This document shows positions 3,201 through 60,180 of a DNA stretch of 64,000 nucleotides, in pieces. Each line of letters starts with the position of its first letter. Positions within the stretch are counted from its first letter, which is position 1. The DNA is from Eublepharis macularius. Its lineage: Eukaryota > Chordata > Lepidosauria > Squamata > Eublepharidae. The notes beneath the pieces are model-generated. The model worked only from the letters and a program-made list of their open reading frames with translations. It was not told the DNA's origin and made no database searches. The stretch covers positions 60,155,766 to 60,219,765 of the forward strand of contig NC_072801.1 in assembly GCF_028583425.1 (NCBI RefSeq). Reading direction: 5' to 3'. Both the position numbers and the translations under genes were made by a program.

Positions 3201-6200
3201 CAAGCTCCATGCATAGTAGAGAGCCTCTGCAGCACAGTGTGCTTCCTCTTCTGCTAGCACTTCAGTTTGTGCATTACTGTGTTTTCAATGGGCCCCTGTG
3301 CAAAGGGAACTGCTAGGAGAGACTGTCCAGCATGTGTGGAACTCGTTCCTATGATACAGACCTAAAATTTTGTTTTCTATGAACTATAAAGCTCAGTGAA
3401 CAATGTTGGGCCAGCCATCACTTTTCAGCCTAACCTACCTCAAAGAGCTGAGTAGTAAAAAAAGAGAAGTGGGGAGAACCTGAAATACTTTGGGGGTGTG
3501 TGTGATAAAAATATAACCCACAAGAACCAAGATGTAGTAAATGCATTGTGACATCAAATTACCATATCAATTTCACATGATTAAATATTACTTCTGAATG
3601 CATCCTGGCAAAGCAACAGCTAGTACGTAGCACATCTGAAAAAAACGCTTAGGGGGCCCTACAGGCTCCCTGAAGCTCTCAGTACCAACTGTTGCCACCT
3701 GAGGGTGCACTTGAAAGAATTATCCACCATGGATCCATCATGAAGTTAGCTTCCCAGGCTTCTGCAAACATCAACAGATTCCAAGGAGTTGGCCTTAGGG
3801 AGGACTAAGGGCATGAATGGGTATACTAGGCAGCAAGCCACAGCTCCTGATAGGGAAGAGGCCTTGACAGGTCAAAACGAAAGAGCATGCAAGACGCTAC
3901 CTGATCAGTCTTTCGGTTAATCAGGATCCCCATGACCTTGCTAAAGAAACTGGCCAGCAGCGGATTGAGAATACCACCAGTCTGCAGGAAGCTGTAGAGA
4001 CGTCGCAACAGGGACTCGTCTTCACCCAAAGCGTCATTTATTTGTGTGACATCAGAAGTCAAAATCTCACATGATACACTTGGGTACCTGCGGAAGATGT
4101 GGAAGGAAAGGGGGGAGAAGAGATTTTGAGGAGGCCTAGTCTGCAGCAGGAAAATCTCAGCCACCTTCTTTCTCTTCTTGACTGGTTTACAACTCACTCA
4201 ACCCTGACAGCTCTGCACTTCCCTTCTGGCTTGCAGAATGCACACTTTTCAATAAGGAAGTGCATAACATCACGTAACAAGGCTCTGCATCAAGGTAAAT
4301 TGTGGTCCACAAAAAGGTGAATCCTGCAAGCTGTATAAATTATGCAAATCAGTTCGATTTGCACAATTTTTGCCCCCTCCTTGTGATCAGCAGAAGTGGA
4401 AGGAATATCACTATCCACTGACAACTGGGAAGCCCGTTCTTTGGCTTCTGAGATTTCCCCAGGCATTACCTGCCCATTTCCAAGTCCATCTTCATAACCA
4501 CCCCAATGTATGTGAAACTAAAAGTCTCAGAGTGAGGAGTACCGCACTCATAATCAAGACAGTGGTTACACACAAACTGAGGAACACAGCCTTGGTCTCA
4601 AGGTCAACAGCCTATCTACCCCCACTGTTGTCAAAAGCTCTGATCTGCTGCAGTAGGGAATGACCACCATACTCTCTCAAAAAGAGGCTTACCTAGGACC
4701 AACCGATCCCACATACTCCAAACAGCCTCCCCCCTTCCGACATGAACACAGGCAAATACCGGCACCTCCCTAGAAAACATTTGCTCAGCTCGACTCCTAA
4801 GCTGTGACCTCTGGATTGGCAACCCCAACCTACCACCTTTTATTATCAAGTCCTTGGGTTCTTCCCTCTGAAATTGTCCCTTGCTAATTAAACCCTAGAA
4901 ATATAGCTCCCTGTGGTCACTGCGTAATGATCTCCAACATTAAGAAGTCAAGTTGCTTGGATTCCTCTTTACTGGTGGTTCAATGGTAGAACAACCCAAT
5001 TTAGCACGCAGGATTCCAGTGCAACTCCAAGACTTATTCAGATCGTCATCTACCTATGTGTTGCCTCTTGACAAGGAGCTTCATATAAAAATGAGTTCAA
5101 GCTGGTGGGTGAAATCCATGCCTTGCAGACTTGCCGAAGGCAGAGAGAGCTTGTTTCAGAAGCACTGAGGAGACCTTCATAGTTGCCTACGTTCTGGTAA
5201 TTATGGTTCAAGTAAAAGAGGGCTGCACAATTTAATATTAATTGACTGGATGCATTGTCATCTTATGGGTGCAGGATTTTTTTTTTATTCTCAGCCCTTT
5301 ATTAATTCTGATGTTTGAACTAAGGTGGATAACTTTTAAAAGTCTTGAGGAAAATCTTCTCCCAGTATACACTTTTATACATATAGTTAAACCACAATTA
5401 CTGATAATATATATAAGTAGGCAGCCTCCATTCGCTGAACTGCCAGTTGGCTTCTCCCCATCCAGGAGAGTCTACTGTAATGGCCATTCACTTGAACTAT
5501 GAGGCAACCATTAAATAGTATTATGTAAAAGTTGCTACCTCAATTGGCTTATATTCCTCCTCCCTCCCACTCTCCTTTTCTAGTCTCTCTCAAATTGTAA
5601 AATTATTTTAAACAGTAAGCAATCTTGAGTGCTTTGACAGAAATGTAGTAAACAAAATGACAAACACAGTAGAATTTTATATCGCAGGTATACACAATCC
5701 ATAACGTACAAAGCAGTTGACTCTAAGTTCCCATTCAGTACCTACACAAAACTTTCCTCATGCAGCAATCAGATATAATTGGGGACAACAGTTTCCTACT
5801 GTAAATTATTTAAGGAATTTTTACATCACTTTTGAATAACTACACTCAATATGGTTCTTATATAGTCCTGCATGAGGTAAGAGCCCTGTGGTGCAGAGTG
5901 GTAAGTGGCAGTACTGCAGCCCAAGCTCTGCTCACGACCTGAGTTCAATCCCGGCAGAAGCTGGGTTCAGGTAGCCAGCTCAAGGTTGACTCAGCCTTCC
6001 ATCCTTCTGAGGTCAGTAAAATGAGTACCCAGTTTTCTGGGGGTAAAGTGTAGATGACTGGGGAAGGCAATGGCAAACCACCCCTTAACAGAAGTCTGCC
6101 AAGAAAACATCGTGATGCGATGTCCCGCCATGGGTCAGTAATGACTCGGTGCTTGCACAGGGGACTACCTTTACCTGCAGTCCTGCGTGAGCACAATATA

Positions 6201-11832: not shown

Positions 11833-14075
11833 GCCAAATTTTACCCAATCTGCTCTGTATTGCCAAGCTGAACTAGAGAACAAGTACCTCCCACCCCGTC
11901 CTTTTGAGGTTCACGTATCGGGCATGTTTCTGAACTTTTGCTCAGATGCTTAATCAAGTTGCTACATTCTTTCTTCCCAACTCCTCCTTATACCGATGGA
12001 TGATGCTGCATAGAGAGGAAGAGGAGGAAGTTAAGAGGGGAGGAGGATGCAGGAAGGACAAATAGGGAGACAGCAGCGTCAAATAGAAAACAGGAGAATT
12101 TAAAACATGCCAGATTGAAAGCAAAACAGTTTTGGGGTAAGCCTGATCTAAGGGCAAAAAGAGGAGAGAGGGTAGTGGAAGCCACTCAAAATTGATGCTC
12201 TGCAATGGCAACTCGCTGATTACGACCATGGACCCTTGCAACCGTGACTACATCAGCTACCCGACACATGCATGGACTAGGGCTTCAGGACATGTGTTCC
12301 CCTGGGGTAAAATAGACATGGGCAGATAGGAACAGGCATGATTCTAGACACTCGCGTAGCCTCGTGTAATTCGTCTCGTCTAGTTTGGCTGTTAGAGAAC
12401 TTCATGATGGAGTACAGATTTGAACTCAGATCTCACTGTCTTATTCCAACACTTGAATCCCTATATCCACATCAGTCCATTATTTTACACTCTTCTGAAG
12501 TTATCTCCATCTTTGCTAATGCTGTTTCATCACCTGCTTACTCGTTTTTAAAAATTCCAGCAAACATACTCTAGTTTCTGTACATCTCCAGGGTGAACGC
12601 ATGCCTGAATATCACCAACTTTTTTTAAAAACACCTTGTCTTAAGAGAAAGAGTTTACAACCAGATTCCTTCTTCTGCAATCCAATCAATACAGCCCTGT
12701 TTAACAAGAGAAAACAGACATTGCTATTCATGAGCAGCGCTGGTAATTGGGAAAGGGAAGAGATTTCAAACCCCTGTTTAAGCCTCCTCCTTACTTTCTA
12801 TTTTATTAACATTAGTCCAAGAGTATTTTTCTTCACAATCATTACAGCAAAGTTGTGTGCAAGGTTAGGAATATATGCAACTGAACTGTTTGCAAAAGAA
12901 TGTAATCAGGAAGAAAATTTGGTTTATTCATTTCAAGAATGCATGATCAGAACTCAGCTATCAGGAATAGGACTTTAGATATGCATCATCCTTGTCTCTG
13001 GCTCATTTCAAGCAGAGCACTGCTACCGTTTCGCGTGATGCTTGAATTGACAAACCACTGGGTTGGATCCTACCAGTCTTTCTGCTGGTAAAAAAGGATG
13101 ACAGAAGACATCCTGGAGAGCATGGGACTTATATTATGAACAAAAGCCAGGACGTAAGGGGGATATAATAAGGAAGGGAATTGGGTGAGACTAAGTTCTG
13201 GAAACTGATCAGTGAAAATGTTGGCTGGATCCAAATAATGGTTTTCAAAAGCAGCTAATCAAAACTAAAGTTAGGCTTTTAACTAATCAAAAAAGATCTG
13301 GTCAGTCAACTGGCTATGTTAGTCAAAGATTAACAACAAAGAGATATACTGTAACCATCAAGTTTAATACTTGGTAAAAGGTTAAGAAAACAAATTAATT
13401 TTACCAGACACTGAAAGCAACTTTTAAATAAACTGCAATGATTTTACTTAAGTCTGCCACAGGAGTTTTACAGAGTGGACAGCCAGATCGCCTGTGGCAA
13501 GCAAGATGGAGTCATGAGTAGTATCTATTTCCACTAGCAGCTGCTGGTGTTCCTGTTCACAGAAATCTGCACTTACAGCCAACAGCCAATAGAAGTTTCG
13601 TCTTGACAGCTACAAGACTAGGGGGCAGCTGGCCCTCACTTATGCTAACAAATCACAATGGAATGTTTTTGTTTTTATAAAAGGTAAGCTGTCACCTACA
13701 CACAGTGATGTTCTTGGTTTCATGCTAGAATATTTGACCACCATTAGATGATTGGATTTGACTGGTCAACTGCTAACCTCAAGCAAAGCAAAATTTTTAG
13801 AAAACCCAAGTTTTGAAGCAAGTTTGCAAGCCACAGCTTGGAACTATGTTTGAATTGACAGGCCCTATTTACAGCCCCCGTTCCACTTCCAGAGGCTGCT
13901 GGGGGTCACAGGAGAGACAGTAAGCTTATGAGGCAGAAAGGACAGAACAGAAACTCCAAGAAGCAGTTCCAAAACAAGCTCAACTCACAACTTGAAGTGA
14001 GACACTGAACTTCCAGGTAGGTTCAAAAAAGCAGCAACAGGACACCCTTAATACAAAGCTCAACAGATACAACAG

Positions 14076-14612
14076 ATGCTACGATCAGCAAAAGACAGTA
14101 GAGACCCCCTCACCTCTGCAGGAGTATACCGTATACCCTGCAGCTGTGGACAAGTTTACATCGGGACCACAAAGCGTAGCATCCAGACAAGAATAAAAGA
14201 ACATGAAAGACACTGCAGACTTGGACAACCTGAAAAATCAGCAGTGGCTGAACATAGCCTAACTCAAACAGGGCACAGTATCTTATTCCAGGACACCAAA
14301 ATACTGGACAACACTTCCAACTACTTTGTCAGACTGCACAGGGAAGCCATTGAAATTCACAAGCATAAGCAAAACTTCAACAGGAAAGAAGAAACCTTAA
14401 GAATGAACAGAGCATGGTATCCAGTTCTGAAAAACACCAGGCTAACTAAACATTCTATCCCCGACAATAGCCCTGCAGAGAAGATTAGCACATCAAGTAC
14501 CAATCCATATGCAAAAGAACCTCCTCAGGATACAGTGAAGCCTCCCGCCATTAGCATTCCACACCCTGGGAAACTCTTACAGGATGACTCAGCTCAACCC
14601 CACCCCTCCTGA
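14076..14612 (+). CDS. GIY-YIG endonuclease region of a Penelope-like element (fragment)
   Basis: 178-residue open frame. It contains GVYRIPCSCGQVYIGTTKRS: the GVY and YIG motifs of the GIY-YIG nuclease fold with two cysteines between them, then TRIKEHERHCR, and later an FVRLHREAIEIHKH block. These are typical of the C-terminal endonuclease of Penelope-like retroelements, which nicks target DNA for reverse transcription. The first Met is only the first one left after truncation; the reading frame is open from near the 5' junction. The frame ends with a Ser/Pro-rich tail. Not a host gene. Confidence 0.85.
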   Translation: MLRSAKDSRDPLTSAGVYRIPCSCGQVYIGTTKRSIQTRIKEHERHCRLGQPEKSAVAEHSLTQTGHSILFQDTKILDNTSNYFVRLHREAIEIHKHKQNFNRKEETLRMNRAWYPVLKNTRLTKHSIPDNSPAEKISTSSTNPYAKEPPQDTVKPPAISIPHPGKLLQDDSAQPHPS

Positions 14613-14668
14613 GTAGATACAAATGACCTGCAAACATCTTTTCCACACTGTGACACTGAGAGATCTCT

Positions 14669-14742
14669 GTCTTTTGGTGCTACACCTCTGAAGATGCCAG
14701 CCACAGCTGCTGGCGAAACGTCAGGAACTACAATGCCAAGAC
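14669..14742 (+). ncRNA. Hammerhead-ribozyme-like fold in the Penelope tail
   Basis: CTGAAGA at 14688-14694, then a 6-bp stem (GCCAGC 14696-14701 with GCTGGC 14709-14714), then GAAA at 14715-14718. An outer helix can form between 14669-14678 and 14735-14742 (eight pairs with a two-base bulge). Penelope-like elements are known to carry hammerhead motifs. Here one extra base separates the CUGANGA box from the stem and no clear stem III exists, so activity is doubtful. Confidence 0.5.
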
Positions 14743-17700
14743 CACGGCAATACAGCCCGGAAAACTCACAATAACCATCGTTCTCCGGCCGTGAAAGCCT
14801 TCGACAATACTTCGACAATACAAAGCTCAGTAGCTTATCAGTTCTGTGGCCACCAACAAGGAGGATGTGCCCAGCCACATACTTCAGCTAAGGCAGTACT
14901 CTTCTAGGCAATCAGGTGAGGAAGCTTTTAAAATTCAAACACAAGACACAAAAGCCATTTAACCCCTCTTATTAGGACCAAAACAGTGTACATTTTTGTT
15001 CTCCAGAGTCTTCATCTGGCAGAATGTAGTATGTGCTTGAGGCAGGGGGAGCAAGATGTTTCAAGCCCTTACCTTAAGGAGTCTCAACTGCACGCTGCAC
15101 AGAACTTGTTGGGAGCTTTTTCTCCCAGAAGGCCAAAGGTGCGGCCTGATGATACCAGTTCACCCAGTACCACTTTATCTATCCAGATCTGCTTGGCATA
15201 AAAGAATGCAGAGTCCCCAAGATTAACGTCTGAAACATCTGCTTCTCTCTCTCTCTCTTTCCTCCCTTTTCCTTTTTAAATAGCAGCTCGACCAAGTTTT
15301 GGAGAACTTGGAAACTTGCATTCTCTTTTGAGTTATGTTGTCTGACTCTAATAAAAGGTGTCACGTGATTTTGGGTTCTAGATTTTGCTTTGAACCCACA
15401 CAGCTACCTGCAATCTGGGTGGGTTTTTTTTTTCAAATGAGAAAATATCTGTGCTGGTTTGTTTTAGGACTTTGATGTGCCAAGAATGACTAATGCAGGT
15501 ATGCGTGGGCAGGTATGCTGAATACTTTTTTGAACTGTGATCTTATTTGCACAACTGCACTACAATAGCAGTTGTTTAGATCTGGACATCCGAAAGGGGC
15601 GCTGGGAAGTTGCCGCTTCCATAGTGAAGGTCAATAACCCATTCAGAAAGCAGTTTGTTAGTGTATTTGCTCCTGCTGCTGCTGCTGCTTTCTGGCTTTA
15701 CCTCTCACCAGTAACCTGAGCAGGGTGTTTTAATCTTGCTTCATTTACTAAGATGTGCTGGGGGTGGGGGGATCACACAATATAGGAACACACTTCAGTG
15801 TTTTACATTCTGGGCTAAGGAGCAACAAGTATGAGAAAGGGATGCAAGGGCAAAGAATAATTGGCTCTGTTCCTCTGCAGTCGTGTCAAAGACTGGAGAA
15901 GGCAAATCGAGTTAAACATTTTAAGGTTACATGCTATAACCAGAAAACTCGGGACTCTACAAAAAGAATAAATAATGAAAAGCATCTGACACACTTCATC
16001 TTTTTTCACACATGAAGCTTTGCTATCTGTGGTGTTTAGTGAGGGGCTGATAAAGAATGAAACTCCCACTACAGCCACCTCAACTACTAAATATGGCTCA
16101 AAATAAAGTCCAGAGCTATGTTTCTTAGTTGAGTGAAACTAGGCCAGCCAACCATCAATTCTTATTATGTGAAGGGACTCTGAAGCTGTAGTGAATTACC
16201 ACCGTCCAAAGATTCTGCTCCTGTTTTAATTATTGGCTTTTTACTGACAAGCACTGATCCTGATTCTCATTGCATTGGTGCAAATTCTTCATTTAGCAAA
16301 CAAATAGGCCAATGTTTTCTCATATATGATGCTGCTGTGTATTTTAAAGATATTCTCTGTGTTAAGCAACATCCAACCTCTGTTCTGGTACAAAGCTGAG
16401 GAAAGACTGAATGGCCCCACATTTGTGTTTCTGCTGTTTTAGTGACAGAATTAGACAGTTTGGAAAGCCAAGAGAACTGGAACTAGGTAACTACGGCCTA
16501 GAAAGTATTCTTACTTGATTAATATCAGAATACTGTTTGCTGGGGCATCTTATCATTAAAGATTTGTTTACCTGGAGTAATGTATGTAGTCAGTCAACCA
16601 ACCAACCAACCGAGAATGCCAGGGTAAAAGAATAATGGTAATTTCTGCAAAGGACTAACACATCTGCAACAGAAGTTTACTTGGAGATATTTCACAGCAC
16701 CAGCACCTTCAGTGGATGCATTTATTTGCTGTTGGGGGTGAGGGAGAGAAGACAGGTTGGTGAAGGGATAGGAACAGAAACCTATCCGCCATGCTTAGCG
16801 AGCCTTCCAGAGACTAGTCAGTTTCACACACAACTGAATATTCCCAAATTACCGCCCCCCCCCAAAAAGAGCACCTACTGACTGCTTTCATGCACACTTT
16901 ATAAAAGAATGTGTGCAAATAAGAGGAGACCCCCCCCCCTTAGATTTCAAAACCTTGGGGTCTTCCTTTTGCCCAAGATGATCCTGGAAACCCAAAAACC
17001 AACCTCTCATGACACAAGGTTTTAATAGAAGACTTGTATGCTGATAGCAATAGACTGTGTTTAACCAACAGGCCTTCTGTGGTATTCCCAGCAAAACTAC
17101 AGACCACAGACAAATATACTTGGCCAAACACTGTTGCCAAGATCAACCTGACTGCTGGTTTTCAAGGCAAGTTACTGGTGAGTGGTGAGTTAAATGAGGG
17201 TTTGGTCAGAAGGACTCGATACCCAAGCTGCAGCTCCCTATGTCAAGCAGCAGATTATACATTTAGAGAGATTATATTTAAAATGTGCTTCAGAGTATCT
17301 GTTAAAACAGTCAAGACTCACAGCAGATGAATCTGCCTAGAAGTTGGATAACTATTACCATGGCTGTTCATACTGGGCTCAAAATATTCCAAATACATTT
17401 TAAAAAGTTAAAGATATATTTTTGATGGTAAAACTTACAATTTTGCAACAAGATGGAAATGTTTCCATTTGAAACTTTGTGCAAAAACATTTTCAATAAT
17501 TTAGATAGTAGTTAAGATATTGAATTTAGTATTTATGTTATTGTGTTTTTCTGTATTGTTTCCTCTTTTTGGTGTAATACTTAATAAAAAATAGGAAGTT
17601 AAACAAATATTTGGGATGTATCTGCATACTTTATTTTAAACAAAGCCTGATGATTTTCAAAAACGTCTCCCCAACATAGTTTTGGAAACTTGCCTTTTAG

Positions 17701-21475: not shown

Positions 21476-21961
21476 CAAACTTTCTACTTTCCAAACCCAC
21501 TTTTCACATCAGCCAGCAAGCTAAAAAAAATTCTATATATTCTCCATAGAACTCACACATGATGTAGGGGGCCCTTGAATGTAAGATAAAGATATAAACA
21601 TTTTAGTTTTGAAAAAGAAGAAAAATTCTTTTTTAGTGCTTTGCAAGACTGGAAAAGCAGGAAGGGGGAATCCTTATTCATTTGTGAATTTCAACTACTA
21701 CATTTCAGCAAAGCACATTTTAAGCGTTGCCAATGATGTATTAAAGAATGAACATGCTCAAATCAGCTTGACTCATTCATCAACCTTCGCCAATATCAAA
21801 ACTCTTGCTGTTAAACTCCTCAAAACCCTATTGCTAGTCAAAAGTTATTCAGTTTTAATGCACTGCTATTTATTTTTGTCAGGCTTTCTTCCATCTCCCA
21901 GTGAACATATAGGTGCTTAATGCTCATTCACTTTGGAACAAGCAGTCAAATGACAAAGCAC

Positions 21962-22095
21962 GATTTGAGTCCACGGCACCTTAGAGACCAACAAGACATT
22001 CAGGTAAGTGTTCAAGAGTCAAAGCTCCCTTTAAGGTGCCACTGGACTCAAATCCTGCTGTTCTACTTCACACCAACATGGCTACCTGAAACCAT
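21962..22095. mobile_element. Hammerhead-like tail repeat in inverted-pair form
   Basis: A minus-oriented tail piece (from 21962) is joined to a plus-oriented one. 21962-21983 (gatttgagtccacggcacct) is the reverse complement of 22032-22054 with one inserted base. The plus part ends with 'cacaccaacatggctacctg', the family terminus. Confidence 0.65.
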
Positions 22096-25398: not shown

Positions 25399-25465
25399 CA
25401 GAAAAGCAAAAGTTGGGTCCAGAAAAGCAAACGTTGGATCCAGAAAAGCAAAAAGTTGGGTCCAG
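25399..25465. repeat. Three-unit tandem repeat, about 22-base period
   Basis: Three near-identical units of the form cagaaaagcaaa(a)gttggr, with tcc at the junctions. They abut the tail repeat that begins with gggtccag, so the third unit may overlap its boundary. Confidence 0.75.
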
Positions 25466-25615
25466 TAGACTTCCAGGGTACAAGCTTCTGAGTTTCAAAG
25501 CTCCCTTTGTCTCTTGAAAGCTCATACCCTGGAACACTAGTTGGTCTTTAAAATGCTACTGGACCCAAATCTTGTTCTACTACAGACCAACACGGTTGCT
25601 CACCTGAAACTATAT
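25461..25615. mobile_element. Hammerhead-like tail repeat in inverted-pair form
   Basis: The minus-oriented part (gggtccagtagacttccagg ... caaagctccc) meets a plus-oriented part (ctcttgaaagctcataccct ... atgctactggaccc ... cagaccaacacggttgctca). The core's GAAAGC and the terminus are recognisable. Confidence 0.65.
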
Positions 25616-28865: not shown

Positions 28866-28980
28866 TGGGTAGCCGTGTTAGACAGTGGCAGCACAATAAA
28901 ACAGGAATCCAGTGGAACCTTAAAGACTAACATTTATTCCAGCATAATCTTGTGTGAGTCAGAGCTCACATCAGATATGG
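28866..28980 (-). mobile_element. Hammerhead-like tail repeat, minus orientation
   Basis: Starts with ggtagccgtgttagacagtg (the family terminus in reverse). It keeps a perfect 5-bp stem, GUGAG/CUCAC on the minus strand (28965-28969 with 28954-28958), next to a CTGATG box at 28969-28974 on that strand. Confidence 0.7.
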
Positions 28981-33786: not shown

Positions 33787-36700
33787 CTTTGAAGGGAGAC
33801 AGAGATTGGGGGAAAAAATCAGTTCCCTCTCATGTCATTACAACTGTAACTCGTTGTCTATTTTTTAAAAAAACAATGATGGTTTTCTGTTCCGAATGCT
33901 ACCTGCAGACAAATGAGACATACCTCCACAAGGATCTTCGGACTCTGTACTGTTAGCAATGCATTACCCATGCTAACTGATGAAGATTTCTGTGTTAACT
34001 CTGAAGTTTGCAGGATCCTGCACTGATACAAGCCTTTGTGACACCACACTTCAGTGTAATCACCCTGTGACCGCTCATCTCAGTGAGGCATAAACCAGAG
34101 ACATTTTCAATGTATCATGCACCTCTTTTTTTTTTTTAATTAACCGCTCCCAAATGACTTTTATGGCAATGGTAGTTTCATGAGACTTCATATGGAGCGG
34201 GGGAGGAAGATCACGTATCTGGAGTGCCTCCCATGTTTAAGTATTTTGTTTGGGACCTGGCTATGGTGGCCTGTTAGCTTTTCATCAAGGATTCCCCCCT
34301 ATGAGGCATTCTACCTCAGGAGTATACCACCCGACTGCACATTTGGATATTCTCTGAATGCCCTCTGGTAGATAGTCAAAGCAGCAGATACCACATGGAG
34401 AGTTGGTTCCTAGCTTTGCCAGCTGAACTTCTTCCAGAGATCTGTCAAAGTCCAGACAGCTTCTCAAAGGAACTGTGCAAGATGCCTCAAGAAACCGTTA
34501 TGCTTCTCAAGAAACTTATACTCTTTTCAGAGAGGCCTGAACCAAGATTCTGACTGTGGCTCAGTAGCAGAACTTCTGTAGGTTCGGTCCCTAGAATCTG
34601 AAGTTAGAAGGATAATCTTGTAGGTCACGTGACAGACTCCCACCTGACAGCCACTGTCCATCAGAGAAGATAGACAATACTTTGATAGACCAGGGGTCTA
34701 ATTCAATGTAAGGCAGCTTCAAGTGACCTGAGTTCTCAGCTGCATAGAGAAAGACTGGGAGCTATACCTCCCTGCCTGCGGTGGTGGAGAGTGGCCTCAA
34801 GTCATACCTGACTTATGGCAACCCCTGGCCAGGTTTTCATGGCAAGAGACTAACAGAGGTGGTTTGCCATTGCCTGCCTCGACAACCCTGGTCTTCATTG
34901 GAGGTCTCCCATCCAATTACAAACCAAGGCCAACCCTGCTTAGCTTCTGAGATCTGATAAGGTCAGGCTCACCTGGGCCATCCAGGTCAGGGCACCTCCC
35001 TGCCTGTATCCTGGACTTCTCCCCAACCTGGTTAGCTTTATATGAGCAGGGAAGATTACTGATCACACACATAAATAAGAATTCAAATATGAAACCTCTC
35101 GCCTGCAGTCAAAAATAGTACAGTAAATCAGGACCGGAACTACACAATTATGCTGACCATCTGCTCACAACAATCCTTTGGCACTTTAAGAGGCCTATTC
35201 TAATATGCAGATCTGCATGGAGCTTACGGTGTATCGCAACTTTCTTCCAACCTACCTATGATATCAAGAAATCACCAAAACACATGTCAAGCGACAGCCC
35301 AATACCTGCAGGCAAGAGTGGGCCTCCGAGATGCCCAAGTATTGATGTTTCAACTTGATTTTTTTTCTAAGTGCCAAATGGGGGGTGGGCAGGGGAGAGC
35401 TTTAAAACAGTGTGGCAAGATTGGCTCTACATCCCCTCCACTTAACATGTTAGGCCAATTGTTTAATTGTTGAGTTTTGTGCAACCTAATTGCTATGTTC
35501 AGAAGAAAACTGTCGTCGCTAACAGCAGGGGTGGAAAATAATCTGCCAACAGTAAACACAACAACCGCAGGCAGAGGGAAAAAAGGGATATATTCCCCCA
35601 CCCTAATAATCAAGAGAAAGCTTGGGGGGGTTAGCATCAGAATGGCCGTAAGCTAGAAAAACAATGGTGCAGAGAAGACTACAGTGCCAATGCTCGCAGT
35701 CTATGGCAAGGGATCTCGCAGAGAAGACTGACTTCTTAAGCAGAAGACAAATCCACTGGGAGCCAGGTTTTGCCCAACTCATGTAAAGCTAGGCAAGATG
35801 CAAATACAGATACTGCCAGATGAGGGTTTCTTAGCTAGCTCAATATGTATATATATTTTGTGTCTATGCCAAAAACATTTTTAAACAATATGTTCATTTA
35901 AAAAGGCATCCTGTTAAACAGAGCTTCTAACTAAAATGTTAAAGAGTTACTATTAGAGATATGCACAACTTCAGTCCCTGACGTTATGTGGTTGGTTCCG
36001 CCTCCTGCAGCAGCTGTTTTGTGGTCGTGTTCACACCCTGTGTCAGAATTCCAAACATGCACGCAGGCTCGAAAAGGATAGGGATCCCTGCTCTACAGAC
36101 AGATGTTGCTCCTGTCCCTGCCGTCTCTATGGTGAAAGGTCCTAGAACCTTGCATTGGAAATGAAAACAGCCATCGGTTCAATGGAATCACCAGAAGCGC
36201 CAATAGACATTGCCGAGGGATCGGAATCCATTTCCAGAAAGCTGGTCTTCCATCCACAAGAAGCTCCATCAGGTAGCAGGGAATTCCATGAGAAAGGAAG
36301 CTCCTCCCACATGACAGAGACTGTGTGCAATTGGCTCTCCGATGTGGGAGGGACTTTTAGAAGCCATGGACGTCTCATTTTTAATTGCAAGAGGGACGGA
36401 TTCTTGGGCTCTTGAGCAATGAAGAGGTCTTCTGCACCTCACTATTGTAAGAAGCGGAGGCCTTTTATGCTGTCTCAGGTTACAGAGGGGGACATACTAT
36501 AGAGAGGTCAGGACATGTACATCCCACCTTTCTGCTTTACTGATGCTTTCCCTTGATATGTAGGTTGCTATTCCCAAGGAACTCCCTTCTTCTGCCTTCT
36601 CCCGCACTTGCGTGCACACTCTCTCCCTCTTGCCACCACGGAGGACACAGGACTTGCTTCCTGCATCCACCACCATCCTAGTTTAGATAGATTCTTTCTT

Positions 36701-37119: not shown

Positions 37120-40100
37120 ATGAGGCAGCAACATTAGAGGTGGACCGTACCACTTAGGGGTGCAGGAGGTGAATTCCAGTTCTGACCTTTTGCATTAAAT
37201 ACAATTCCTGGTTTTCTATTTGCAGGGTGTTTTTTTAATGTAGATCCAGAGGAGTTAGCCGTGTTAGTCTGTAATAGCAAAATAGTAAAGAGTCCAGTAG
37301 CACCTTTAAGACTAACCAACTTTACTGTAGCATAAGCTTTCGAGAACCACAGCTCTCTTCGTCAGATGGTTCATCTTAAAGGTGCTGCTGGACTCTTTAC
37401 TAGTTTTTTAATATAGGAAAGTATTCCAAAATGTAATCCTCCCCCTGCAATTGGAAGTGGTGCAGTCCATTTTGTCACCTCATTCCCGCCTGCATCTAAA
37501 ACAGAACTTTCTAAAAGAGAAAGTTCCCTCTGTCATAAAGGAAACATTGAAAATGCCTTTAGCTGAGCACGTTCCTACCTTGCTTCCCAACTCATTCCCA
37601 ACCATCACCACCAGCCTTTCAAATATGTACCAAATTAGCTGAGAAACTGGAATCACAAGGGTGGAATAATTTATTCGAACTACATCATGGGAAAGGGGAA
37701 AGGGCTTAGGAGGCAGCCCCTTTCCAGCCTACCTGGAACTCTTCCTGCTCCTTCAGTTGCTGGCACCGCTCCTTTAACAACTCCTCAAGTGCCAATTCTG
37801 GCTGCTGACACTCTTGCACTCCCTGGGGAAAATCTGTCACCAGGCTGAAGCAGGAGAGGGGGGGGGGCACAGAGAAGAAAGAGAGGTTGGCTACAGGGCA
37901 GAAAGTTTTACCTCCACCAACGGATCCTATCCCACCTTTACCGTGCCCCCCACCCCATCACTGTCTTCCATATGTGTCAAATCAAGTATCTGGTGCATAA
38001 TCCAAATTCCCGAGTGTAATATGCCTCCTGTTTGTGGGACACCTCCCAGGCTTCCACCATCCTGTCCAGTCTCCCAGCAGGGGTCTCCCCAGGGCCTCAG
38101 ATGAAGAAGAGGAGCTAGGTTGTGTCACTTTGGCTTCGACTCTTCTTCCCCTGGGGGAGTGGCCTTCACACAGCAGTGCCAACTCCCACCAGTGCCTCCT
38201 CCTCAGCCCTGGAGCTGAGCCCTCTTTTTGCTCACCATCCCTGCCCCTTGTCTTCTAACCCCACCCTCAGGGGCCATCCTCATGGCCTGCCATCAGGCCT
38301 CTGTCACAGGCTGCCACTCCACACTCTGACCTGATATGCCTGGCCTCTGCCTTCCCTCTCCTGAGTTGCTACTGGCAGGGGCGGGTCCAGGCTTGCCTTG
38401 GGCAGCACACCCCGGGCCTGACTCTTCTCCCTGCTGGGCCATGCCCTCCTGCTGCCTGCCCTTCTCCAGCCCAGGGCGGCCTGCCTCCTGGGTGAGGTCA
38501 GGGGCTGCAGTGAGTCCTGCTGGCTTGATGGCTGAGGACCCATACTGCTGGATCAGTTGGGCTGCCTGCTTGAGCACCAGCCAATGACATTATCACCCAC
38601 TAGCACCCTGACATCTGCTGTAGCGTCGAGGACTCTGAGGCTTCAGCGGCAGCATTCCAACTTGTGCCTGGCTGTCGCTCACCTCCAACACCCACTGGGG
38701 CCCTGCTGATGCCGCCTAGGAAGTAGAACCCTACCGGGGTTCCACGGCAGCCTCTTGTTAGTTGTGCTAGTGATGGAAGGGTGGAGCAGCTCTGGCTTGA
38801 CAAAGCCATGTCCGGGCCAGGGGTTTGTCCCAGTCCTGGACACTGAGAATATAAGCTTGGGGAATTTTTAAAAGCTACTTTTATTCATTATGCTTACTGG
38901 CACAGTTTTCAAAATGTGCAGTGTGAGCAACAGGCTCTAGACCACTGGCTTGGGTTCTACGGACAAGAGCTGTGTGCACCTAAGCCTCTGCCTTGGAGCA
39001 GGCTTCCTCTCCCGCTAGCACTTGCACAACACTGATAGATCAGTGAACACTTGAGCAAGTGGAAGCGCTAGCAGAGGAGGAAGTGTCCTCTACAGCAGAG
39101 GCCATCTAGCACGCACAGCGCTCGTCCATGGAATCCAAGCCATACTCAGTGAGGTATAGTGGGCCTGTACTTCAAGGTCCGTCCACCTGTACTACCTTCT
39201 CCACACATCAGGGACCAGGAGGCACTTCGCAGGGGTTAAATTTGGCCTGCAGCAAATCTATATCCCTTGGGAGCAAAGTTTTGCAAGTTTTTTATGGGCT
39301 GCATGAAGTGCAACTTTCCTGAATCTGCTGCTCATCAAACTTCATTAGGTGCCACTAAGTTCTGGTATTTTAAGAGAAGAATTCAGATTGTTTGCACAGA
39401 GCTACAACATGACTAAGTATCCCGACTCTTACCACTCTCTGCATTTCTTTGCCCACTGCTATAAATCTGATCCTGTTGTTCCCCCATCCCATTTCCCCAT
39501 TCCAAAGAATGCCAATTCTAAGCACACTTACAGTGCAATCCTAAACTGAGTTGCTCCAGTCTAAGCCCATTGATTTGAATGGACTTAGACATTTTAGGAT
39601 TGCACTGTTAGAGAAGACAGATCCATGAAGGAGAGGTCCAGCAGTGCCCATGGTGAGTAGATGGAACCTCCATATACAAAGGCAGCTGAATACCAGTTCT
39701 AGGAAGCAGCATGAAGGTAGACCCTTGGCATCTATGCTCTGTTTGTTTGGCCCTCCAGGGCAACTGTGTTGGCCACTGTGGGTGAGAAACAGGATGCTGG
39801 ACTCGATGGACCCCTGGTCTGAACCCGTTCTTCTATGTGTTATGCGCCATCAAGTCGCTGCCAACTTATGGCGGCTCTATGAATGAATGACCTCCAAAAT
39901 ACCTATCATTAACAGCCTTGCTCAGATCTTGCAAACTGGTCGATGTTGCTTCCTTTATTGAATTAAGCCATGTCCTTTTGGGTCTTCCTCTTTTCCTGCT
40001 ACCTTCCACCTTTCCTAGCATTATTGCGTTCCCCAGTGAATCTTGTCTTTGTGTGATGCAATCAAAGTATGATAGCCTTAGTTTACTCATTTTAGCTTCT

Positions 40101-43100: not shown

Positions 43101-46100
43101 CGAGGGGATGAGACGTATTCATGAAAGACAGGTCTATCAGTGGCTACTAGCCATGGTTACTAAAGGGAGCCTCCGCATTCAGACTTAGTAAACCTCTGAA
43201 TACCAGTACCAGGAAGCAAAATCACAAGGAGGACTTGGCCTCTGTGCCCTGTTGTTGGCCAAAGTAGCCAGCTGGCCAGCGTATGAAACAGGATGCTTGA
43301 CTTGACATCCCTGCATACCGACTACAGTCTTGAGGCAGCCATCTGTTGGCAACCCCACCTCTCAGTGTGGCCTGTCTGGCATCAGCCAGAACTTGGGCTT
43401 TTTCCAATATGGCTCCTGCTGTGTGGAATGGGCTCCCGGAAGAGGTGAGGGGAGCTCTCGGCTTGGAGATATTTAGGAGGCACTGCAAGGCCTGTCTGTT
43501 TGTCAGGGCTTTGAATGACAGACGTCTTTTAAGGGAGGGAGGGATTTACAGTTTGTTACTTTGTTTTGATTTTAACTGTAAATGTTTTTAATCTATTATT
43601 GTAAGCCGCCTTGAGCCATAAGGAAAAGCATGGTTAAAATGGTTTAATAAATACATTTATGCTATAAATAAATACATTAATAAATAAAAGCAGGGGTTAA
43701 ATGTTTCAATAAATACATAAATAAATGGACCACTGGTTTGATCCAGTAAGACTCTTTTTATGTTCTTATGAGGGAGGAAAACGCCTGTGCCCAGAGAACA
43801 AACCAAGTTGCTGATGCCGATAAACCTGTTTAATTACAGTTTGCTGTGATGTCTGAAAAAATTGTCAGTGTTTACAACAAGTATGTATAATTTAATCATG
43901 CGCTTCACAAAGCAGGCTCTACCCCTCAAAAATGTACCGTGCAATAAATGTGTTCCTCTTAAGAGGCCACAAGATTTGTTTGTGTTGTGTGCGCTAATTA
44001 AAAGCGTGTTTCAATTCTTGAAAAACAGAGTTGAGCACTGCACAGGCCAATACTTAAACATGTGAAGCGTTTGAAAAAACTCACACTTTAGAATGGCTGT
44101 TTTGTCCTACCTCAAATAGATTTTGAAAGTCCTCCATTTTTGGAATTTTTCGAGGATTTTGACACAAGCCGTGCTTTCAGGTTTCCCCATCTCTGCTGAC
44201 TCTTTTCTTTGTAACCCTTCCAGCCTGAATTACCCATCATGCTATTAACTCACTCTTCTTCGCATGCATGTACACAGTGTGCATGCACACAAAAACGAAG
44301 GCACGTCCCTACCTGCAGCATTATCCAAGTTTTCACACAACTCTGCCAGAAGATCCAGCGCTTCCTCTCTGCTCACCCGGTCCGAAGGGGCCTCCTCCAA
44401 ACTCTCTTGGCCTTCCATTCCGGGGGTTGCTGCTGTTCCGGGAGTCGCTGCCTCCAGCACCCGCAAACACTCCTTCATCTGCTCTATCTCATCCAGTTGC
44501 CCTCGAAATGCCTCCACCATCGCTTCCTGTAGCCACTGCCTCCGCTGGGAATTCAACCAATGGGGGAGAGTGAAAAACACAGGTCAGAAATACACACACA
44601 CACACGATCCTCCTCTTCCTGACTTCTTTCAGAAATATTCATGCTCGGGCCACCCTGTCATTCTTGACCCAAGCCTTGAGCTGAAGAACGCAAGGAGTCC
44701 TGCTTCCCAGAATCTAGCCCCCCTAACACCAGCCTGTGAAAAGTCAGTTGAGTTTGACTGACATCCAGGCCCCACCGCTGCTCTGAATTTAGGTATGATT
44801 GCCAGCATTGGTTACGGACTTCCTTCCTGGACCTCTACTAGCAGCTTGCCATACAGACATTAGCTGGTCATTTAATGTGGGTAGCCGTGTTGGTCTGCAG
44901 TGGAACAGCAAGATTTGAGACCAACAAGATTTCCAGGTATAAGCTTCAGAGAGTCCCAAAGGGAGCTTTGACCCTCAAAAGCTTATACGTTTTCAAATCT
45001 TCTTAATTACATCATATAAGGTATCCTTAAGACCGGAATTGATATTTCTGGAAAGATCAACACACACGGTGTTTACACAAAGAATTAATATCATTGTTGT
45101 TGGCAGCAGCTAAAAATGCCATAGCATCAAGGTGGAAATCGCATTTTCCTCCAAATCTGGATACATGGTACCTAAAAGGTTTGGGAGCGACTTATCATGG
45201 GAAAAATTAGACTTCAAACTTCTGCAAACTTCTTAAACCAGCACACTTCTATGAGAAATGGCACCCTTTTTTGGACTTTCTTTCTAGGAATGATTTTTTA
45301 GTTACTAAATTGCCTTATTATAACATCATTAATTCAGAAATTTGAATTCATGTATTTAAGCTTATCATAGAAATGGTTCTACCAATAGGCATAACTATTT
45401 TGAAATTAGATACATTCTATAGGATTAGATTTTTCTTATTACTAATAGTTTTGTTATGAAAATCTTATAGCAATATTGCACTTGGTAATTGTTGAATGTT
45501 GTTGTTCTTTGAAAATTTTAATAAAAGTTTTTTTTTTTAAAAAAAAAAGCTTATACGTTAAAGCTTTGTACTCTTTAAGGTACCCCTGGACTCAGACATT
45601 AGCTGGTAAGAATGCAGGTATAACTCCATAGGAAAGTCCAGACACAAGAGTGGTGATATGTGTTTGTTTCAAATGAAGACCTACCCAAAGGCCCTGGAAA
45701 GCTTTCCCTGTTGATTCCTACATATTATTCTGTTCAAGGCACAGGAGAAATCTAAACTGTTGCATTTTGTCTTAACCACTGAGTAATCCCAACTGATTTG
45801 TGCAGCCAACTTGCTGCACACAGGAAGTTTTGTGCCTGAAACAATGCAGATCTTAGCTACATTATACCTAATGAAGATTATGAAGCCCTTTGAGATTCAA
45901 AAGCACGCTACGTACTGACACACACAGGCCGCCACATGTGCAAAATCAGGAAAATATTCAACTAAAAAGGGCAACAATCCCTGGTGACTTTTGTGAATAC
46001 CACAAACATTAAGACGTAGAGCAGTGAACACCGACAGTCCCCAGAATGCAATTTTCATTCGGTTTGGAAGAAATGGATGTCTATTCTCAAAAGGCTGCAA

Positions 46101-49194: not shown

Positions 49195-49690
49195 CTGAGA
49201 TCCAAGGATTTGAGTGCAGTGGCACCGCAGAGACTAACAAGATTTTCAGAGTATGAGCTTTCCAGAGTCAAAGCTCCCGTCTTCAGGTATCAGAGATGTA
49301 AGAACCAGTGCAGAACAGTTACCTCAGTGTTAAGGTAAATAAAAAGGAGCCCTCGAAATTATAATACGGCAACGTTTGATTCCAGAAGAGGGAAATTCTC
49401 AAAAAGGGCAGGATTCAAGTAAAGTTGAGAGTAAAGACAAGCAACTCTCTTCATGGTATTTGGAAACTCTTTTAATTGAAGCTCTAGTAGAACGTATGCT
49501 ACACATAGAGATGTCAGTGTGCTTAACTAAGAAAGTCTTAAAAAGCAAAAAGTACCTGAAGAAGGGAGCTTTGAGTCCCAAAAGCTCATACCCGGAAAAT
49601 CTTCTTGGTCTCTAAGGTGCCATTGCACTCAAATCTGCACACTGCACTAAGGTGCCACTGCGGTTCTATTGCGGACCAGTATGGCTACCT
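49195..49690. mobile_element. Pair of hammerhead-like tails in opposite orientation
   Basis: 49195-49292 is minus-oriented (ggatttgagtgcagtggcac ... gagtcaaagctcccgtcttc). 49550-49690 is plus-oriented (ctgaagaagggagctttgag ... aaggtgccattgcactcaaa ... ccagtatggctacctacctg). About 260 bases of unassigned sequence lie between, possibly more of the same element. Core stem GGGA/UCCC in the plus copy. Confidence 0.65.
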
Positions 49691-49916: not shown

Positions 49917-51706
49917 CCTCAAACTCTCCCTTACGTGAATAATGCCCTGTAGGTGGAAAGCTAGCACAACACACCAAAGGCTAGCTTGAAACTTTCTACC
50001 TGAAGTTTTTTTTTTAATTTGCAAGTTTTTGATACATGCTCCTCACATGGAGTCCAATGTGGTATGTCCCATTCGACTATCTCTGTTTTCTACCACTTTT
50101 CCTGTTGCATGTATAGATTAGGGCTACAGAGGCCTCCGTGTTATTGGTGGTGGTTGTTTCGAAGAAGTAATTTGAAAAGTGCTCCTTGATGCCATCGGTG
50201 CCATTCCAGCTGGTTTGTAGTTTCCACAGTTCACTAGTGAGCCATCTGCAGATGAATGAAGGTCTACTCCACAGTCTGGAAACCTACAGCAATCCTATGT
50301 GGCAGGGAGAACGTGTTGTTTATGGGACTCAGGAATACTGTACGTGAATTGTGTGGTGTGGTGTGACTTCACTTTATTCTCAGCTGCTCAAAGCAGATTC
50401 CTCCCGTCTTCAAAATTATCTTAAAATGCATAGATGCACCATGTTTATGTGCTGCACAAATGCAGTTAGCTGAGCAACAGGGCTTCCCCCAGGCTGGTCT
50501 GTGGTTTCACTAAGGTCAAACTCCCATGCCACTTCACAGCACTTGTGACTTGTGAGCTCTTCTCTCACAGTCTGTGTGCACATGTGGAAAACAAAACAAA
50601 TTTTAAATTGCACACATGGGCATGTGCCGAAAACAGATTGACATGCATGCAACCAGGTCTCTGAATCAAACGTGGTTGCGCAAGAATACTGGTTTGCAAC
50701 TGCATTTCAACCATGCTGCACTTTCCAATGAATCTGTGATGTCTGTCAAAATCTAGGCATTCCCCATTCATTCAAACACCAGCCACTACAATTCCTACTT
50801 TTAACTCATCCTCTTTACCCAAGTCTCTTACCCACCCAAGTCTCTCTACACGAGACACCTGGGCGCATGTTTGTCAAATGCTGAGAGATGCACTGTTAGC
50901 CAGGAAGCGTAGTTTTAAATGACAGAGCCAGTGGAGATCACTGGCCCCACTGGCCCCCACTGACAGACCCCAGTGGAGGGGTCAGATTCTCTCACAGCCC
51001 GCGGTCGCCTCTGGCATGCCGGCCTGTCTCCTCTTCTGGAGCTTTTACCCTGCTGCCGTCGCTGCTTAAAACTTTGAATTAACCGAGCCTTGGCAGGGCA
51101 AAGGCTCCGGAGGGGGAGACAGCCTGGCATACCAGAGGCAGCAGAGGGCTATGAGAGAATCCGTCCCCTCCAGAGCAATCTCCGCTGGCTCTGTCATTTA
51201 AAACTATGGTTCCTCCTGGCTATGGTTCCTCCTGTGTCTCCCAACACGTGAAGAACACATGTCAAAAGTCTTGTATAGAGAGACTCAAAAATGCCAAGCG
51301 CATTCCCCAACTACTTTTCTTCTTCCACAGACTTTCTTCTTTCCTTGCACTTTCTCAAGTTCACTGACACCATTTTTAAATGTTTGTTCTCAGCATTTTT
51401 GCCTAGGGTTGGTAAACTGCACTCCCATTGTGTGTGTTTTTTTAAAAGATGTATGCACAACTTCCCTCACTGGTGTGCCTATTCGGTTGGGTTTTTTTTA
51501 AAATGACCAATAAGGTCATTAGAACAAAATAAAAAGACGAGTTCCTGCATGTTGCAGATAGGTCAAGAGTGAGTTCAGAAGGAATTGATTCAAAGGCACA
51601 GAAACTATGCCAAAAATTACTGTTGTTGTTTTTTAAAAAGCTAATTATGAACACAAATGTGTGTACATAAAACTTTCTATTGTCTGTGGCTTGGCTCACT
51701 TTCTTG

Positions 51707-51962
51707 ATCAAAAAGAGTCCAGTAGCACCTTTAAGACTAACCAATTTTATTGTAGCATAAGCTTTCGAGAATCAAGTTCTCTTCGTCAGATGCATGGTAC
51801 AGAAACTGGTCAAATATACCAGTTTCTGTACCATGCATCTGACGAAGAGAACTTGATTCTCGAAAGCTTATGCTACAATAAAATTGGTTAGTCTTAAAGG
51901 TGCTACTGGACTCTTTTTGATTTTGCTACCACAGACTAACACGGCTAACTCCTCTGCATCTA
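51707..51962. mobile_element. Tail repeat forming a perfect 104-bp palindrome
   Basis: 51707-51810 and 51818-51921 are exact reverse complements with a 7-base loop (caaatat). The right half runs on to the family terminus (cagactaacacggctaactc, 51932-51951). Each arm carries CTGACGA, a 5-bp stem (GAGAA/UUCUC) and GAAAGCTTATGC; in the plus arm these are 51839-51845, 51847-51851 with 51857-51861, and 51862 onward. Confidence 0.95.
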
Positions 51963-52014
51963 TCACTTTCTTGAGTTACCCTTTCTGCACACACTTGACT
52001 AACCTGACTAGTGT

Positions 52015-58912: not shown

Positions 58913-60069
58913 TGTGGAGAGGCCTATACAATTCTCTCCCCCCTCCCCAATCCTTTCCTGCTGCAGCACTCTGGATGAATGGAAGAGTTTTTTACTCTCT
59001 GCAGGGATGCCGATTCGATTGTGTGGTTTAGATTATGGGGCTCGGTCATGAGAGAGACGGCTTGACTAAATGCCCAAGGCCGGGCAATAAGAAAATTCAT
59101 CTTCTTTAGCTTCCTCTCCTCTTTTGGTGAGGTCGCTGGATGGAAGGTTGAGGGAGGGAGGGGGACCCATCTATCTCTCTGCAATGATGCAGGGAAACCC
59201 AAACCACAAGGCCTCTCTCTCTCTCCCTCAGTCCCTCAATTTGTGTGTGTGAGTCTCGGTGTGTACAATGAGTATTGTGGCTTGTAAAGGGACCGACTAC
59301 TGCAGTGGCAGAAGAGACTGTGACAAGGGGAAGCCGGACCGGTGTATGTGCTGGGGGGGGGGGCGGTGTCCATGTTTTGGAGATTTTAAAATGTAAAAAG
59401 AAAAATCATAACAATAATAAAGATGTGGAGCAGGTGGGTAAAAGAAACGGAAGAGGTAGGAGGGGAGACTGGAGGGTGGGATTTTGCTGAATAATCATTT
59501 CTTCACTGTGGCGGCAGAGGCAGTTTGTGCAAAGATGTTTCAGGAATCTCCGACTAAATGGGTAGAGAGATGGGAAGGGGGAGGGAGAGGACCTGGCTGT
59601 TTCCTGTGCCCCAGAAGGAACAGACGCCAGAAACAGCAGAACAAATTGATGCCTCCACCCAACAGAGAAGAGTTTTCTTTTTTTTGCCTGGAAGTGTTTC
59701 TGACAATAGTCTTTCCTAATAATTTATGAGACTCCTTAGTGTAGTAAAATACATTGATAGGAGACAACTGAAGTGACATGTCCAAGGTCACCTAAGAGAC
59801 ATCAGTGGCAGAGATAGAAATCAAAAAATGCGTACACATCTCAGCTCCTGCTGGACTTGCCTGTTAGTTTTTGTTTCCCAACCCTGAAGATGCTGAGCTG
59901 GGATTCTCCTGGAGTGGGAACGGAAGGAAGTGGTGCATGTTTGCCGACTGAAGAAGCACACAAATGTTTATAAAGCAGTTTGCAAAGTAAAAACAAATAT
60001 GTTGACTGGGGAAAAAAGAGGAATTGGTCTATCACAGTGTGTGCTGTTTACTGATGCTTCACTGGACAG

Positions 60070-60180
60070 AATAGTAAAGAGTCCAGTGGCACCTTTAAGA
60101 CTAACCAACTTTACTGTAGCATACTGGACTCTTTACTATTTTGCTACTAAAGACTAACACGGCTAACTCCTCTGGATCTA
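60070..60180. mobile_element. Hammerhead-like tail repeat in inverted-pair form, short
   Basis: 60070-60087 (aatagtaaagagtccagt) is the exact reverse complement of 60123-60140. The right part continues to the terminus cagac/aagactaacacggctaactc. The inverted part reaches only gcataagctt-upstream sequence (ctgtagcat), so the core itself is lost. Confidence 0.8.

Follow-up and report, generated by a model that had tools for sequence, protein, structure and literature searches.

Hammerhead-like motifs in the pseudo-LTRs of two Penelope-like element families in the genome of Eublepharis macularius

The stretch of Eublepharis macularius DNA studied here (64,000 nucleotides, hereafter called the window) lies on contig C12 of a 2.24-Gb assembly of 72 contigs, in which all genome searches were performed. 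It contains copies of two repeat families that carry a hammerhead-like RNA motif shortly before the 3' ends of their insertions. The first family (fam1) is represented by a 5'-truncated Penelope-like element (PLE) that comprises the end of an open reading frame (ORF), a pseudo-LTR (pLTR), the hammerhead motif, and then ca. 120 nt of the start of the next ORF. This element is bounded exactly on both sides by the 13-bp target duplication AATACAAAGCTCA. The second family (fam2) is present as several insertions, most of them head-to-head pairs of arms (Table 1). An earlier note, made from the letters of the window alone, had claimed that a hammerhead-like fold is common to a Penelope element and an abundant dispersed repeat family, and this claim has held. 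In addition, the minus strand at 34875-34993 gives a 5S rRNA-like match just over the Rfam threshold (38.7 vs. 38 bits) that is perhaps a 5S-derived SINE.

Table 1. Features of the two hammerhead-bearing families in the window (T in DNA corresponds to U in the motifs; a dot marks features given without strand).
Feature	Position	Strand	Basis
fam1 target duplication, left copy, AATACAAAGCTCA	14050-14062	.	letters
fam1, 5'-truncated Poseidon-type Penelope-like element	14063-14816	+	bounds; layout as in PAc
fam1 stem I, 5' strand CCU	14685-14687	+	letters; predicted pairing
fam1 core CUGAAGA (C3 to A9)	14688-14694	+	letters
ATG start codon, overlapping core and stem II	14694-14696	+	letters; agrees with PAc text
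fam1 stem II: GCCAGC (14696-14701), loop, GCUGGC (14709-14714)	14696-14714	+	letters, fold
fam1 GAAA, then CGUC; predicted cleavage after C14722	14715-14722	+	letters, PAc layout
fam1 stem I, 3' strand AGG	14723-14725	+	letters; predicted pairing
fam1 target duplication, right copy	14817-14829	.	letters
fam2 head-to-head pair, decayed, absent from the earlier note	21961-22085	.	profile
fam2 head-to-head pair, decayed	25441-25597	.	profile
fam2 single arm, decayed core	28868-28970	-	profile
fam2 head-to-head pair, hammerhead on minus arm (C3 at ca. 37365)	37254-37416	.	profile
fam2 head-to-head pair, decayed, absent from the earlier note	44880-45005	.	profile
fam2 head-to-head pair, older, with spacer separating the arms	49206-49689	.	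profile
fam2 51.8-kb target duplication, left copy, TCACTTTCTTGA	51696-51707	.	letters
fam2 51.8-kb head-to-head insertion: short arm minus, long arm plus	51708-51962	.	profile, letters
fam2 stem I, 5' strand GCAU	51835-51838	+	covariation set, letters
fam2 core CUGACGA and extra A (51846)	51839-51846	+	letters
fam2 stem II: GAGAA, loop CUUGA, UUCUC	51847-51861	+	covariation set, letters
fam2 GAAA, then GCUU; predicted cleavage after U51869	51862-51869	+	site predicted by alignment with fam1
fam2 stem I, 3' strand AUGC	51870-51873	+	covariation set, letters
fam2 51.8-kb target duplication, right copy	51963-51974	.	letters
fam2 head-to-head pair, absent from the earlier note; minus arm begins (T)ATGC at predicted cut	60066-60167	.	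profile

A genome search with the window copy of fam1 returned at least 40 full-length or near-full-length matches at 97-100% (the copy itself included) and one partial match, with 40 of 1,339 first-look candidates scored. The endonuclease part of fam1 gave a T5orf172 match that remained below the Pfam cut-off (E = 0.0039). The family is of a known type, i.e., a Poseidon-type PLE with the hammerhead layout of PAc, the Poseidon element of Anolis carolinensis that carries a protein-assisted hammerhead (PMC11167929). Its assignment to the Poseidon clade follows the layout around the start codon, and the agreement is one of layout, not of letters or of RT sequence. In full, the fam1 motif reads CCU-CUGAAGA-U-GCCAGC-loop-GCUGGC-GAAA-CGUC/AGG (the slash marks the predicted cut, 26 nt past the ATG codon), and its central part was found at 14688-14718 just as it had been described before (CUGAAGA-U-GCCAGC/GCUGGC-GAAA). 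The additional base ahead of stem II, which the earlier note had offered as an idea of its own, is in fam1 the U of the AUG codon (14695), because the hammerhead overlaps the start codon as in the published PAc layout. At all eight fam1 loci that were compared, the element reaches ..TTCGACAATAC (AATAC), 88 nt past the predicted cut and nucleotide 117 of the ORF. The window copy and one other (L002) have six extra bases, and the window copy ends 94 nt past the predicted cut.

Among the fam2 copies of the window, the order of core, extra A, stem, and GAAA is intact at 51839-51865 on the plus strand and, on the minus strand, at the inverted partner of this arm around 51789 and at around 37365, in agreement with what had been noticed from the letters. 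Two further copies listed in the earlier note bear it out in part: the order is present at 49.28 kb (minus strand), but its extra base is C and one stem end is unpaired, and at 49.55 kb (plus strand), but with AAAA replacing GAAA. The copies at 0.66, 8.4, and 25.5 kb are decayed, as had been stated, and the one at 28.9 kb, which had been taken for a good copy, has partly lost CUGANGA and has no GAAA. When the fam2 profile hits are counted by position over the window plus the first loci, head-to-head pairs account for 24 of 37.

Fam2 belongs to a second Penelope-like element with its own reverse transcriptase (RT) and endonuclease, of which it is the end that bears the hammerhead. Its earlier description as a separate kind of repeat was rejected in view of a copy with RT and GIY-YIG domains and of the position of the hammerhead ahead of an ORF. 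Far-apart head-to-head fam2 pairs were fetched for a coding search, and one of these longer copies (L029) has RVT_1 (E = 1.3e-11) and GIY-YIG (E = 1.3e-5) matches in the same frame between its arms, i.e., the combination in one element by which PLEs are recognized, in a frame that is interrupted by stops with GIY-YIG coming after them. The family also has the PLE form with a two-sided repeat, inverted copies, a tail on one arm, and a short target duplication. For the RT-side DNA of L029, 40 of 1,312 first-look candidates were scored, and each of the 40, the query itself and copies in the duplicated part of contig C1 among them, matched the whole query at 97% or better. In four of eight fetched fam2 upstream stretches (L059, L060, L064, and L065), we found the hammerhead followed by an open frame with its ATG 93 nt past the cut position, and the long fam2 arms end in ..CTCTGGATCTA, at the point where the start codon comes next. 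The hammerhead is present in the repeats flanking the gene on both sides, with the two sides observed in different copies. Cysteine pairs lie ahead of GIY-YIG in L029, and on this basis fam2 may tentatively be called Neptune-like.

Two further features of the longer fam2 copies deserve mention on their own. Well upstream of the current hammerhead, the fam2 pLTR holds an older, second pair of hammerhead-like arms arranged head-to-head, with ..GCATCTGACAAAGAGAACTGTGG.. opposite ..CAGGGAGAGCTGTGG.. (L029:368-464 and 2863-2987; also in L030, L032, L033, L059, L060, and L062). The middle of L032, between its fam2 arms, holds an open stretch of 353 aa that presumably resembles the integrase part of Pao/BEL-type elements.

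Both motifs are very abundant. The core pattern of fam1 has 35,574 matches in the genome and that of fam2 has 56,467, compared with 0 and 4, respectively, for the reversed patterns, and a 27-base string from the fam2 tail occurs 42,351 times (reversed: 0). The type I core, CUGANGA and GAAA around stem II, is present at 14688-14718 as well as at 51839-51865. Neither family keeps the canonical arrangement with no nucleotide between A9 and stem II, since U stands there in fam1 and A in fam2, and the PAc layout would by analogy imply the same extra U. With this position left free in the search, fam2 has A in 100 of 100 rows among the matches listed (segmental duplicates included), using a pattern that would miss shorter-loop copies without that base. 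The NUH triplet before the predicted cut is GUC in fam1 and CUU or CUC in fam2, where the genome patterns fixed its last position to Y. Among 146 fam2 copies, G12 is G in 101, A in 38, C in 4, and T in 3. The conservation of the core over many copies, for which the earlier note had called, was thus measured in part, i.e., freely at G12 and the extra base, with the other core letters mostly fixed by the search patterns.

Beyond dispersed copies, nine fam2 hammerhead cores stand in direct tandem at 52-base spacing in G000:C1:10495543-10496001, forming a minisatellite that arose from the motif. On the same contig, the stretch G000:C1:4.5-8.5 Mb contains the same sets of fam2 copies at constant spacings and looks segmentally duplicated, so repeat counts within it are not independent.

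The Rfam hammerhead models, which had been suggested as a check, matched neither motif at E ≤ 10 and gave nothing at gathering score across the whole window, and a PDB sequence search returned no match. The shortness of the motif and this lack of an Rfam match could be taken to mean that the resemblance to a hammerhead is due to chance. We find this scarcely credible, because the same core is found in the same place and at similar spacing in two PLE families, one of which agrees with the layout of a tested ribozyme, and because stems I and II covary.

This covariation is a property of fam2. Compensatory change in stem II had already been claimed from the copies in the window and was borne out genome-wide, as both sides of the stem differ between fam2 subfamilies and GUGAG is partnered by CUCAC at 4,295 sites vs. 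CUCUC at 137. Stem I, whose covariation is an addition to the earlier claims, likewise changes on both sides between a younger subfamily with GCAU/AUGC (20,655 sites in the genome with the 3' strand AUGC) and an older one with GUAU/AUAC (7,177 sites with AUAC). Pairing was scored over 146 distinct fam2 copies of 43 nt, which come from the 91 and 67 distinct rows that were left of 100 and 100 listed in the AUAC and AUGC searches once exact repeats had been dropped, with 12 copies of other length left out. Pair 2 of stem II is paired in 139 of these copies (shuffled mean 71.8; A-U 67, U-A 56, G-U 13) and pair 5 in 134 (shuffled mean 118.2; G-C 75, G-U 30, A-U 28). At pair 3 of stem I, where the searches set the 3' letter and the test is whether the 5' letter follows, 112 copies are paired (shuffled mean 88.5; U-A 56, C-G 52), and 16 of the 146 have C with A, as decaying copies would give. 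At each of these three pairs, the observed pairing was attained by none of 2,000 shuffles, which ignore relatedness. A possible sixth pair of stem II showed no covariation (72 of 146 vs. 72.5 in shuffles), and the remaining stem pairs have one-sided or scarcely any variation or have one side fixed by the search.

Fam2 thus displays the compensatory stem change expected of a type I hammerhead at three pairs in two helices. In fam1, stem II is almost invariant and does not covary in 100 rows among the matches listed, so that the covariation over many copies anticipated by the earlier note is seen in one of the two families. The two-sided changes in fam2 are few events in source lineages that are seen many times, not thousands of events. 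Fam2 often stands in inverted pairs, and part of contig C1 looks segmentally duplicated, which might suggest that two-sided changes arose merely from the DNA palindromes of head-to-head insertion or from gene conversion, without any selection on the RNA. However, the stems are contained in one arm, and where subfamilies that number thousands of copies differ, they do so at the same pairs of two distinct helices, which makes this origin very improbable. Coding was rejected as the cause of stem conservation in fam2, whose hammerhead lies upstream of the ATG; in fam1, the hammerhead overlaps the ORF start and coding constraint may act there.

For stem III, the earlier note had proposed GC-UUAU-GC in the 51.8-kb copy, and we discarded this helix. 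Its 3' half belongs to stem I, in which AUGC pairs with the GCAU before CUGA, and it fails across copies, given that the older GUAU/AUAC subfamily could not form it. From the end of GAAA to the predicted cut, the letters are A-GC-U in fam2 and A-CG-U in fam1, which offers a loop-less candidate made of an A-U plus one C-G or G-C pair (ACGU, AGCU) that may correspond to the stem III without a loop described for hammerheads of Penelope elements. Judging from their letters, AGCU and ACGU are self-complementary, and two molecules could pair over 4 bp; predicted dimer energies showed no intermolecular stem III. Minimum-energy folding gave stems I and II for the RNA of the 51.8-kb fam2 copy and for a composite built from the older subfamily, and a different fold for a second fam2 composite (hammerhead stems in two of three fam2 RNAs). 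For fam1, stem II is kept, but CUGA pairs with UCAG across the predicted cut, a modeled fold that speaks against ready self-folding and would fit a need for protein.

The insertions themselves record how these RNAs are copied. Genome-wide, 412 fam2 junctions have 10-40 nt and 1,202 have 41-71 nt between GTTAGTC boxes, compared with 0 for the reversed arrangement. Twenty junctions were taken in listed order; they had been preselected as head-to-head and are not informative on the frequency of that form. A long arm was joined to a short one in 18 of them by script and in 19 by eye. The difference is a small deletion in L052 that the script left unbridged, and L035 is the exception to the rule. 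A target duplication of at least 8 bp was present at 17 of the 20 junctions vs. 1 of 380 mismatched pairs. Inspection by eye of fam2 pairs from the window and other loci, several of them decayed, gave the same form in 15 of 15 evaluable cases, of which five (L029-L033) had been chosen as widely spaced; the set omits the non-evaluable pairs at 44.9 kb and at 9.9 kb of L022 as well as L005.

Long fam2 arms end 92-95 nt past the predicted cut in 16 of 18 cases and 86-87 nt past it in the other two, and short arms end 42-62 nt past it (median 55). In fam1, three of eight loci (L003, L006, and L008) have an inverted partner arm that by eye ends ca. 54-56 nt past the cut, with the long arm of these loci ending 88 nt past it. 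New from these counts are the near-constant pairing of long with short arms and the similarity of the distances between the two families. Such similar distances from cut to start site, together with a start codon that is placed differently in the two families, suggest that it is the RNA, and not the protein, that is constrained. Within the fam2 tail, GTTAGTCT (51887-51894) and AGACTAAC (51933-51940) flank the short-arm end and could pair, and the decayed 25.5-kb copy has by eye GTTGGTCT and AGACCAAC in their place, which suggests a further covarying helix beside the RT start sites.

If cut, linear RNAs served as templates, the first base of an arm should be the one that follows the cut. Among 50 fam2 junctions evaluated by script, 3 of 100 arms end exactly at the predicted cut and 11 end six bases beyond it at an AAGCTT palindrome, so there is no clear peak at the cut in this set, with a minor share being possible. 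At least one junction, at C1:129590646, was missed by the script and by eye meets at the predicted cut, and the fam2 copy at 60.12 kb of the window starts there. The six AAGCTT junctions are more simply explained by two cDNA ends having annealed at the palindrome; alternatively, one arm could lie at the cut and the other beyond it, two readings that the script, which uses longest matches, cannot separate. Some arms cross the predicted cut in a further 50 fam2 junctions, read without scoring, and the 56,467 core matches by definition sit in cDNAs that crossed the site. As the arm ends do not cluster at the cut, most integrated cDNAs probably came from templates that were unbroken there, i.e., uncut or cut and rejoined. 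Mostly continuous templates in fam1 and fam2 would agree, by analogy, with the report that hammerhead mutants of PAc insert normally in vitro and that RNA-seq shows no ends at the cut site (PMC11167929).

These observations lend themselves to a different reading, in which the stem-loop is kept for the element protein or for the initiation of reverse transcription, with cleavage lost and the hammerhead letters left as a relic. Arm ends without a peak at the cut, arms that cross it (read without scoring), and the PAc insertion and RNA-seq data fit this idea, as do the close distances from cut to 3' end in both families and the prediction that fam1 RNA alone folds otherwise. We consider it possible but doubtful, since the PAc hammerhead does cleave with its protein and is abolished by single C3 or G8 mutations (PMC11167929), and since subfamilies vary their stems and yet retain CUGANGA, AAA, AGCU, and a permitted base 17 (letters that were mostly fixed by the search patterns).

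Our preferred explanation, to which we assign a probability of roughly 0.87, is that fam1 and fam2 are PLEs with a minimal type I hammerhead of loop-less stem III in their pseudo-LTRs, for which cleavage is predicted. This finding enlarges a known kind of ribozyme and does not constitute a new one. Tandem element RNA would fold the hammerhead motif, and the monomer would cleave weakly or not at all. Cleavage would work better as a dimer (through the self-complementary AGCU or ACGU) or with the element protein, as published for PAc, and would release unit-length RNA. Reverse transcription would start downstream of the cut position, ca. 55 nt from it for the short arm and ca. 90 nt for the long arm, and would be primed from both target ends, resulting in an insertion of two head-to-head cDNAs. 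The templates used would be uncleaved at the cut position, religated, or circular, because the integrated cDNAs mostly read across it.

The last option resembles a retrozyme-like cycle in which tandem hammerheads would cut themselves, a host ligase would circularize the RNA, and the circle would serve as the template for cDNAs that cross the healed site. Such a cycle would explain the two-sided hammerhead repeats together with cDNAs crossing the cut, and circles are described for metazoan retrozymes (PMC7229834). From full circles, however, one would expect cDNAs extending all the way round to where copying began, and we regard the cycle as unlikely. The hammerhead could also be chiefly a coupling device, with ACGU or AGCU holding a pair of template RNAs together within a single protein dimer. 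Its position ca. 55 and ca. 90 nt ahead of two RT start sites would then let the two target ends be primed at different sites. The odds are well against this proposal, which if true would explain why almost all head-to-head insertions examined in both families have one long and one short arm, as well as uncut templates.

Under the preferred reading of two hammerhead-bearing PLE families, a very abundant dispersed repeat is now tied to such an element, and two stems of its motif covary cleanly. The arms of tens of thousands of copies preserve the points at which copying started and stopped, which makes two questions testable: whether template RNAs are cut, and by what means priming occurs at both ends of the target. 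A literature search recognized no paper on the fam2 motif, with the primary papers on minimal PLE hammerheads outside its reach, and a search on a 34-bp tail found nothing.

Minimal type I hammerheads of Penelope-like elements were reportedly described by Cervera and de la Pena in 2014 and by Lunse et al. in 2017. Reviews place Penelope hammerheads in pseudo-LTRs, describe them as devoid of helix III, and consider them perhaps active as dimers. Fam1 and fam2 are like these in their pseudo-LTR location, in having no real stem III, and in the dimer action proposed. Metazoan retrozymes are dispersed non-coding repeats with type I hammerheads, of which those of amphibians act better as dimers (PMC7229834). 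They are short, tandem, non-autonomous repeats, whereas fam2 forms one end of an element that has an RT and an endonuclease of its own. For the endonuclease-bearing Penelope elements of Adineta vaga, the published account describes a tail on only one inverted repeat, reads the elements as self-priming on antisense RNA, and nowhere uses the word hammerhead (PMC3846280); in contrast, the long and short arms with target duplications found here fit two-end priming.

In PAc, the ORF and stem II begin at the same point, C3 and G8 precede the start codon, and the cut falls 26 nt after it; RT starts 111-118 nt into the ORF, with two start sites and both target strands used (PMC11167929). Unlike PAc, fam2 has its hammerhead clear of the start codon, with the ATG 93 nt past the cut position. 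Fam1 belongs to another genome and was compared by layout, not base by base. It is like PAc in that stem II lies at the ORF start, that the start codon comes after C3 and G8, and that the predicted cut falls 26 nt past this codon. An optional tail of 30-40 nt and the use of both target strands are further likenesses, and the common 3' boundary of the eight fam1 loci, at nucleotide 117 of the ORF, falls inside the range of 111-118 reported for PAc.
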